A stretch of 64,000 nt of DNA from Bradyrhizobium betae (GTDB lineage Bacteria; Pseudomonadota; Alphaproteobacteria; Rhizobiales; Xanthobacteraceae), in contig NZ_CP044543.1 in assembly GCF_008932115.1 (NCBI RefSeq), forward strand, positions 6,702,501 through 6,766,500, written 5' to 3'. Below are positions 32,919 to 35,028 of this stretch, one piece after another. Both the position numbers and the translations under genes were made by a program. Below the pieces are notes generated by a model. The model was given only the letters and a program-made list of their open reading frames with translations, was not told where the DNA came from and made no database searches. Each line of letters begins with the position of its first letter. The stretch's first letter is position 1.

Positions 32919-34115
<1,197 letters not shown>

Positions 34116-34159: not shown

Positions 34160-34192
34160 AGAAAGGCCGCACCTTGCGGGTGCGGCCTTTCT
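34160..34192 (-). terminator. Attenuator-type terminator hairpin upstream of argD
   Basis: On the minus strand AGAAAGGCCGCACC pairs perfectly with GGTGCGGCCTTTCT (14 bp) around the loop CGCAA. TTTT follows three bases later. It lies 26 bases after the stop of the Arg-rich leader ORF and 45 bases before argD. Bases 34178-34184 of its ascending arm (CGCACCC) are complementary to GGGTGCG at 34240-34246 inside the leader ORF. Confidence 0.8.
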
Positions 34193-34217
34193 CGAAAACT
34201 TCGCTGAATTCAGTGCT

Positions 34218-34310
34218 TCAGCGGCGTCGTCGGACATGGCGCACCCTCTCATCGTCGCGGAAGCGACGACGGAGCATTTCGGTGCGCTGATGGGTCCGAG
34301 CGTTGATCAT
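34218..34310 (-). CDS. Putative arginine leader peptide of argD
   Basis: This is a 30-codon ORF with 12 arginine codons, including CGT-CGT-CGC near the middle and CGA-CGA-CGC-CGC directly before the TGA. Its ATG at 34310 lies about 10 bases after a -10-like TGTATT, so the mRNA would be nearly leaderless, as for the trp leader of Sinorhizobium. The ORF is too short for routine gene calling. A small hairpin (CGCTGAA/TTCAGCG) overlaps the stop, and the terminator hairpin follows. Translation of this ORF as an arginine sensor is inferred; the codon content and arrangement are seen directly. Confidence 0.7.
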   Translation of the reverse strand: MINARTHQRTEMLRRRFRDDERVRHVRRRR

Positions 34311-34320
34311 GGGGCGCGGC

Positions 34321-34348
34321 AATACATGCCAATGGCAGGGCTTGTCAA
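34321..34348 (-). promoter_or_regulatory. Sigma70-type promoter for the argD leader
   Basis: On the minus strand TTGACA (34343-34348) and TGTATT (34321-34326) are separated by 16 bases, a good housekeeping promoter match. The predicted start of transcription is near 34314, a few bases before the leader ATG. An imperfect inverted repeat (about 34349-34372) lies immediately upstream and may be an operator or the end of the preceding gene. Confidence 0.6.
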
Positions 34349-34386: not shown

Positions 34387-35028
34387 TCAGGTCAGATGCG
34401 CGGCTCCCTCGGCATCTTCGTCGCCCCAGTCCGCATCGGCAATCGCGCTGTCGATGAGCTCGCCGCGCAGCAGCTTGAGCGGCGATTTCCAGTACAGCGC
34501 GATGTTGTGGAAGGGATCGGTCAGCACCTTGAACGCCCACACCAGCCCGGTGGTGACGTCGCGCGTGACGAACAGCTGGAGCATGCGCGCAAGGGCGCCG
34601 CCGATGCCGATCGCGAGCCAGAGCGCGCCGACATGGCGGACGAAATCGAAGCGGTCGGTGGGAAGATCGAACAGTCCGAACAGTGTGGGATAGGCGTACA
34701 GTGCGATCGGCGCGCTGCCCCAGACCAGCAGCAAAACGATCTTGCGGGTCTGGTTGTAGCCGACCTTGACCGCTTCCTTGTAGTCGTTGCTGACGTCGTT
34801 GACCGCGTCGTAGCCGTTCGGCTCGAAGAAGAAGTGCCCGGTCTGCCGCGTCAGCATCGCGAGCCAGCCGACGATGCCGGCAAGCGCCGGGTCCTTGAAC
34901 AGCAGCGCATAGCAGCCGAGGAAGATCACGGCACTGAACAGGTGCAGCGTCTGGTTCACGGTGCTCTGGTGGTAGAAGCGGTAATCGTCGAAGCGCTGCG
35001 TGCGCAGCATATCCGAGAGGTGGCTCAT
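34387..35028 (-). CDS. Mpo1-like (DUF962-type) membrane protein
   Basis: This 213-residue protein has about four membrane helices. The segment FYHQSTVNQTLHLFS and the later RQTGHFFFEPNGYD resemble the conserved His/Asn/His and GHxxFE motifs of the DUF962/Mpo1 family. In yeast Mpo1 is an iron dioxygenase acting in alpha-oxidation of 2-hydroxy fatty acids. The match is by motif only and the C-terminal half is longer than in typical members. A 9-bp perfect hairpin (35037-35062) lies in the 5' leader close to ATG 35028. Confidence 0.5.
   Translation of the reverse strand: MSHLSDMLRTQRFDDYRFYHQSTVNQTLHLFSAVIFLGCYALLFKDPALAGIVGWLAMLTRQTGHFFFEPNGYDAVNDVSNDYKEAVKVGYNQTRKIVLLLVWGSAPIALYAYPTLFGLFDLPTDRFDFVRHVGALWLAIGIGGALARMLQLFVTRDVTTGLVWAFKVLTDPFHNIALYWKSPLKLLRGELIDSAIADADWGDEDAEGAAHLT

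Follow-up and report, generated by a model that had tools for sequence, protein, structure and literature searches.

Ribosome-mediated transcription attenuators occur before the trp, his, leu, ilv, thr and phe operons in Proteobacteria. Control by arginine through a leader peptide has a eukaryotic example in the fungal arginine attenuator peptide, where translation is arrested at high arginine through the peptide itself. Among the closest described bacterial systems, the trpL/rnTrpL leader of Sinorhizobium meliloti is a leaderless ORF that starts from the AUG at the 5′ end of the transcript, encodes a 14-residue peptide and targets trpE (PMC10117765). The Salmonella speF leader orf34 senses arginine via ribosome pausing at consecutive Arg codons (two). 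It has a Shine-Dalgarno sequence, a start at +32 of the mRNA and a conserved DUF2618 core, its target being ornithine decarboxylase, and its output consists of Rho-dependent termination, RBS masking and RNase G decay, with no intrinsic terminator seen (PMC6386406). The uORFC-8-2 motif before cysS of Rhodobacterales is presented as a bioinformatic leader ORF with tandem Cys codons, stems and a terminator (PMC8632094). Among the matches listed in a search of the full text of open-access papers, there was no arginine attenuator before argD.

The locus described here lies in a window of 64,000 nucleotides, the whole stretch of Bradyrhizobium betae DNA that was analysed, where a short Arg-rich leader ORF precedes argD. 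From sequence and modelling it is very probable that this gene is regulated by a trp/his-type attenuator that is leaderless and responds to arginine. The initial annotation of this DNA had proposed arginine attenuation, and the proposal is supported by the recurrence of one layout in leaders of very different sequence and by ribosome-position folding. The argD leader would be an arginine version within the family of ribosome-mediated attenuators, its experimental features being predicted ones. Like the trp/his-type attenuators, it has a short leader ORF with a run of end-product codons, alternative hairpins, an intrinsic terminator and a biosynthetic gene downstream. It differs from them in the predicted sensing of arginine, in argD as target, in having no Shine-Dalgarno match, and in its two Arg runs and a stop codon inside the predicted antiterminator. 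The likeness to S. meliloti trpL/rnTrpL is one of layout, a leaderless leader ORF in a rhizobium, while the window leader has no Trp and is followed by argD instead of a trp gene. As with orf34, consecutive Arg codons of a leader ORF would be the arginine sensor, but the window leader precedes argD and not an ornithine decarboxylase gene, and is without a Shine-Dalgarno match. Like uORFC-8-2, it is a computationally found leader ORF of Alphaproteobacteria in which codons for a single amino acid stand in tandem, accompanied by stems and a terminator, although that motif uses Cys codons and a tRNA synthetase gene. Arginine control via a leader peptide, here predicted, is the point in common with the fungal peptide.

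Anatomy of the Leader and Its Gene

All parts of the locus lie on the minus strand in the order sigma70-like promoter, leader ORF, stop hairpin, terminator-like hairpin and argD. The promoter, TTGACA-N16-TGTATT (34321–34348), has its −35 hexamer TTGACA at 34348–34343 and its −10 hexamer TGTATT at 34326–34321, with a spacer of 16 nt. It was not listed by a strict promoter scan of the window because that scan accepts only −10 hexamers with A in second position; with a looser score it is better than 300/300 shuffles (P 0.003). The leader ORF, MINARTHQRTEMLRRRFRDDERVRHVRRRR (34218–34310), begins with an ATG at 34310, 10 nt 3′ of the −10 box and without a Shine-Dalgarno match, and has 30 codons, 12 of them for Arg, followed by the stop TGA at 34220–34218. 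Its central Arg triplet, codons 14–16 (CGT CGT CGC, 34263–34271), is also the 5′ arm of a mid-ORF hairpin with the 3′ arm at 34250–34258, and its terminal Arg run occupies codons 27–30 (CGA CGA CGC CGC, 34221–34232). A hairpin lies over the leader stop codon (GCTGAA/TTCAGC, 34203–34222). Further downstream, an intrinsic terminator-like hairpin by sequence (34160–34192) has 14 bp, arms at 34192–34179 and 34173–34160 and a 5-nt loop, and is followed by GCTTTT, a weak T tract. The promoter with an ATG about 10 bases after its −10 box, the Arg-rich ORF with four Arg codons before the stop and both hairpins had been reported in the initial annotation and are confirmed here. The gene upstream of the promoter (34387–35028 of the window) has a sub-threshold Mpo1-like match (20.5 bits, cut-off 24).

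The complementarity pointed out earlier between GGGTGCG (34246–34240) and CGCACCC (34184–34178) likewise holds. A second one, between GCGCACC (34287–34281) and GGTGCGC (34245–34239), gives a 1-2-3-4 set, in which segment 1 (GCGCACC, 34281–34287) can pair with segment 2 (GGGTGCGC, 34239–34246), the partner of either segment 1 or segment 3, and the core of segment 3 (CGCACCC, 34178–34184) overlaps the 5′ arm of the terminator. The leader RNA folds much more stably than shuffled versions of it (z −6.7), and the full-length MFE fold contains 1:2 and the terminator.

The gene after the leader belongs to arginine biosynthesis. It is argD (32919–34115), an NF002985/PRK03715-type acetylornithine transaminase (649.9 bits against a cut-off of 568), with its ATG at 34115, 44 nt 3′ of the terminator. 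The earlier placement of argD downstream of the leader was thus correct, but this is the second, NF002985-type argD of the genome and not the argF-linked one. The other ArgD is 45% identical, is of the NF002325 type (646.6 bits) and adjoins an ornithine carbamoyltransferase gene. The frame divergent from it resembles GcrA, as recognised by eye, and a GcrA-like/argD divergent arrangement is described for S. meliloti argD (PMC3616915). No Arg-Arg-Arg leader was found upstream of the argF-linked argD among ATG frames of 8–50 codons within 330 nt, so the leader belongs to an extra argD. A looser scan gave there a 35-codon frame with 7 Arg and no Arg-Arg-Arg, 252 nt upstream of the match start, at a threshold at which Arg-bearing frames were also listed at some other control loci. 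Before argG, argJ, argC and carA of the same genome, no Arg leader with the argD-leader layout was seen by reading. Upstream of argG there is an Arg-Arg-Arg frame of 21 codons and upstream of argJ there are Arg-rich frames, but on reading they look like the tail ends of the preceding genes. Several partial argC-like matches, of which some contain internal stops, were seen at G000:C1:7125832–7127795 and 611–1991; they adjoin the full argC and sit at the other end of the contig.

Conservation among Close Relatives

Relatives of ArgD were collected by a scan of genome contigs, and the best 80 loci of a longer list were kept. A leader ORF of 28–30 codons homologous to that of the window is present at 63 of these best 80 argD loci, L060, L066 and L073 have an unlike Arg-rich ORF instead, and 14 passed no leader threshold. 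Closer reading of those 14 found Arg-Arg or Arg-Arg-Arg frames before argD at L067, L069, L070 and L071. At L053 (1–480), a transposase-like frame, recognised by eye, stands in place of leader and promoter while the terminator before argD is kept; judged by its sequence, this locus is a natural loss of the putative sensor.

The 64-row alignment A1, in which row L049 starts three bases before its ATG, has the leader frame open in 64/64 rows. Indels inside the ORF are whole codons, and the spacer 3′ of the leader stop varies in length by single bases. Arg is found at alignment columns 6, 16, 25 and 28 in 51/51 distinct ORFs and at columns 10 and 15 in 50/51, and the non-Arg residues are mostly variable. 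The stop hairpin keeps its five-pair core, GCTGA–TCAGC, in 64/64 rows with a variable loop. Covariation was counted as two-sided cells, of which the terminator has 14 (5.0 in shuffles), the 1:2 and mid-ORF hairpins together 25 (10.9 in shuffles) and the 2:3 helix 3 (1.3 in shuffles); pairing in the last is kept in 90.3% of cells, with one pair failing in 35/62 rows. The clearest compensatory case, found by eye in A1, is that of L050 and L055, where both terminator arms are altered to GCAAC/GTTGC and pair perfectly with their own segment 2, GGGTTGCG or CGGTTGCG. Alignment across Bradyrhizobium argD loci, which had been suggested from the sequence of the window, therefore finds the Arg codons, the hairpin and the complementary segments conserved. 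An overlapping minus-strand frame from 34237 (ATG TCC GAC GAC) was rejected from A1, since five rows have GTG in place of its ATG and the frame enters the spacer that varies by single bases. Over the whole ORF, synonymous changes numbered 44 against 132 other codon changes on a minimum spanning tree, which gives no coding signal. Because much of the ORF is structured RNA, conservation within Bradyrhizobium cannot separate codon from RNA constraint.

A Layout Shared by Different Leaders

Layout and folding were compared in 24 leaders, 5 of the Bradyrhizobium type and 19 others; the set leaves out the other Bradyrhizobium-type loci, L070, L071, L146 and L149 and the duplicates L067, L069 and L123. 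A terminator-like hairpin with a T-rich tail lies between leader stop and argD in 24/24 leaders, in a search without shuffle control and with a doubtful pick for L125. With the promoter search restricted to −10 boxes ending 3–12 nt before the ATG, the best −10 box lies 6–10 nt before the ATG in each of the 24. The promoter by the ATG beats shuffles (P < 0.05) in 22/24, the exceptions being L124 and L150. No Shine-Dalgarno match of more than 4 bases precedes any of the 24 leaders except L050, where it overlaps the −10 box.

This promoter spacing puts the expected transcription start on the leader ATG or no more than a few nt away from it. A study of B. japonicum USDA 110 maps 320 transcription starts 0–10 nt before start codons, so that leaderless-type messages are not rare there; argD and attenuation are both absent from its main text (PMC4842269). 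L126 and L127 seem to have, in addition to leader and terminator, a hairpin between leader and argD that masks the argD ribosome-binding site. That of L127 is formed by CTTGTCC.. with ..GGACAAG, and L125 is possibly alike. Such a hairpin would add a translational layer.

Ribosome Position and the Terminator Arm

The RNA was folded up to the end of the terminator 5′ arm with the ribosome footprint fixed codon by codon, and the readout was the pairing of that arm with upstream sequence. Most leaders behave alike: a ribosome on the Arg cluster sequesters the greater part of the arm, and by about six codons further on the greater part is free. Tested against shuffled upstream sequence, the contrast between Arg cluster and positions past it gives a Stouffer z of 8.4 for the 24 leaders and of 7.35 for the 19 outside the Bradyrhizobium type. 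Two other footprints, with one value per lineage, give z of 7.4 and 6.1 for 16 lineages, of which 11 have z > 1 and 2 have z < 0. The Arg cluster also differs from the codons just past it (z 6.9, 15 lineages, 3 below 0) and from ribosome-free RNA (z 7.5, 16 lineages, 3 below 0); the contrast with a ribosome at the stop codon is weaker (z 4.0, 16 lineages, 6 below 0), the arm being sequestered to about 0.6 or more at the stop in 8/24 leaders. Exceptions are L125, which goes in the opposite direction, L101, L122 and L073, with little effect, and L127, which is footprint-dependent.

In the window, arm sequestration is 0.82 with the ribosome stalled, 0.29 just past the cluster and 0.55 at the stop. 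That a ribosome at the mid-ORF Arg triplet leads to an antiterminator, as first proposed, is thus borne out in silico. With the ribosome at codon 15, the fold is a composite antiterminator in which 2:3 encloses both the stop hairpin and pairing that involves the conserved GTTTTCGAGA stretch. Complementarity and folding together support a mutually exclusive antiterminator that uses the terminator 5′ arm. The modelled position of the stop hairpin within this antiterminator would explain its retention. The further suggestion that a ribosome at the stop covers 34246–34240 does not hold: with the footprints used it reaches back only to 34238–34232 and leaves that segment uncovered, while a ribosome standing a few codons short of the stop would cover it. 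Termination from the stop position is less clearly predicted. The lowest-energy fold pairs 1 with 2 and the antiterminator is gone, but in the ensemble the arm is only partly free (0.55), and it is freest (0.2) with the ribosome on segment 2, at codons 21–25, which means that how the ribosome is timed relative to RNA polymerase must make a difference. Window RNA that ends at segment 3 and carries no ribosome favours the antiterminator (0.82), so that shut-off without translation is not predicted here at equilibrium, and would require 1:2 to form first during transcription. For ribosome-free L124, L128, L136 and L147 the arm is at 0.01–0.12, and shut-off without translation is predicted.

In the mechanism that we infer, transcription would begin at or beside the leader ATG, and ribosomes would bind at the 5′ end with no Shine-Dalgarno sequence to guide them and translate the ORF. 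When charged Arg-tRNA is scarce, the ribosome would stall on the central Arg codons (about codons 9–17, chiefly CGT CGT CGC) and block the pairing of segments 1 and 2; segment 2 would then pair with 3 in the composite antiterminator around the stop hairpin, and RNA polymerase would continue into argD. When arginine is plentiful, the ribosome would advance onto segment 2 (about codons 20–29) in time with RNA polymerase, segment 3 would be free and the terminator would form; after passage of the ribosome, segments 1 and 2 could re-pair behind it. The modelling makes the central triplet the likely main sensor.

It is possible, though unlikely, that ribosome-dependent control by arginine works here through another sensor, namely the terminal CGA CGA CGC CGC run or a poly-Arg nascent chain in the exit tunnel, or through another output, namely argD translation or Rho. 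Codon column 28 is CGA in 51/51 distinct ORFs, and the terminal CGA CGA run equals the central triplet in conservation at its opening codon. In 19/19 non-Bradyrhizobium leaders examined the Arg cluster opens with CGA, a codon that accounts for 2/98 Arg codons in five window genes; L071, outside those 19, departs from the CGA-first pattern with CGT CGT CGT. The arm of L073 is sequestered (0.9) by a ribosome placed on the terminal run. In the window, however, the same position gives 0.3–0.5, no more than shuffles at late positions, so the folding leaves the terminal run unsupported as main sensor, and the last three positions of the run vary (to G, Q, C or S). A different output would fit the hairpins apparent at the argD ribosome-binding site of L126 and L127, but the T-tailed hairpin found in all 24 leaders, with the doubt at L125 and the absence of a shuffle control already mentioned, speaks for termination. 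With the central triplet as sensor, the terminal run may, through slow decoding, keep the ribosome close to segment 2; alternatively it may join the antiterminator pairing or be the remnant of an ancestral cluster.

Distribution across Proteobacteria

An NF002985-type argD over the cut-off was found in 10/297 genomes of the order, 8/385 of the class and 32/398 of the phylum, these samples being overlapping ones. All of the 17 sampled distinct alphaproteobacterial genomes over the NF002985 cut-off, which include 10 of the same genus, have an Arg-bearing leader before argD, with Arg-Arg-Arg in 16 and Arg-Arg in L101. Alphaproteobacterial leaders such as MIRTATLRRRRHMHPLPGPRGRAHGHRIR, MLNLANRNRRRRSPAALARAR, MKKLNTLTNITSLRRRRS and MSPRTRIRVSRRRACV show no obvious likeness to that of the window apart from the Arg run. 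In non-alphaproteobacterial genomes over the cut-off an Arg leader was found in 12/22, for example MNRIQSELRRRRSPLP, MNMIRTLLRRRSPLPLPGKPCA and MYTEQIINRIYMQVNGADIRRRRYQSVCAIKKCLFTS, and none was seen by reading in the other 10/22. The leader, which had been thought of in a Rhizobiales setting, does occur there but is not confined to it; on the sequence features given above, the type spans several classes of Proteobacteria. The gammaproteobacterial leaders L073 and L070 have a second Arg run right before the stop (SRRR-stop), as in the Bradyrhizobium type. The NF002985-type argD genes read as lacking an Arg leader are those of L133, L134, L135, L137 and L139–L144, of which L133, L134, L135 and L137 are in genomes of 1.7–2.1 Mb, where the lack of an Arg leader may mark loss of control.

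The leaderless ORF and short terminated RNA match the rnTrpL layout as described (PMC10117765), and one could imagine that terminated leader RNA or peptide acts in trans, like Sinorhizobium rnTrpL/peTrpL, with cis attenuation being secondary. We regard this as improbable, for the non-Arg residues of the peptide mostly vary and the leaders of other lineages share little beyond the Arg run. The place before argD is kept and the sequence is not. Action in trans would be compatible with cis control.

It is very improbable that the locus is a structured RNA or terminator with a chance Arg-rich frame in GC-rich DNA, the hairpin being the end of the upstream gene. High GC makes Arg codons common, the mid-ORF codons double as a hairpin, argG of the same genome has its own upstream Arg-Arg-Arg frame that reads as another gene's end, and about 5% of shuffled upstream regions yield an Arg-Arg-Arg ORF. 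Nevertheless, an ATG frame of 8–50 codons with Arg-Arg-Arg within 330 nt upstream is found at 23/42 NF002985-like loci, where 2.04 are expected from dinucleotide shuffles, and at 0/41 loci of other-type argD, where 1.93 are expected. Loci counted as NF002985-like if they exceeded the cut-off or if their identity to the ArgD of the window was 55% or more; the 42 are not independent, since 5 Bradyrhizobium-type loci were picked for the set and some of its genomes are related. The nominal P of 6e-21 overstates the enrichment, because related loci were counted and two of the 23 are probably chance, the frames upstream of L068 and L072 being apparently in the upstream coding region. L070 was counted as a miss because its leader sits beyond 330 nt. 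Furthermore, the same layout recurs in very different sequence, and in the window the hairpin is separated from the upstream gene by the promoter. A T-box or metabolite riboswitch, which the strong fold might suggest, is hardly credible, given that Rfam 15 covariance models gave no match at gathering score anywhere in the window and that the lineages share the Arg run, promoter spacing and terminator with no obvious common core, as judged without cross-lineage alignment.

Implications

CGA, CGC and CGT are read by one tRNA. With the attenuator reading preferred, it is on balance probable that these leaders form an undescribed class of leaderless arginine attenuators, found in several classes of Proteobacteria and travelling with NF002985-type argD. 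Such leaders would evolve fast with mainly their logic kept (promoter at the ATG, Arg run usually CGA-first, terminator) and would sense the charging of that one tRNA. In Bradyrhizobium, the second argD would be an arginine-starvation isoenzyme beside the argF-linked argD.

If this is true, arginine would join the amino acids with a classic attenuator. A comparative study describes ArgR as highly conserved in many gammaproteobacterial groups and absent from other classes (PMC5343134), and where ArgR is absent a ribosome-read arginine switch, present in several classes, would provide a means of feedback. The natural series of fast-evolving leaderless leaders would be useful for studying Shine-Dalgarno-less initiation and CGA-first codon choice against the attenuator threshold, and Bradyrhizobium, with its two argD genes, offers a setting in which the physiological question can be tested directly.
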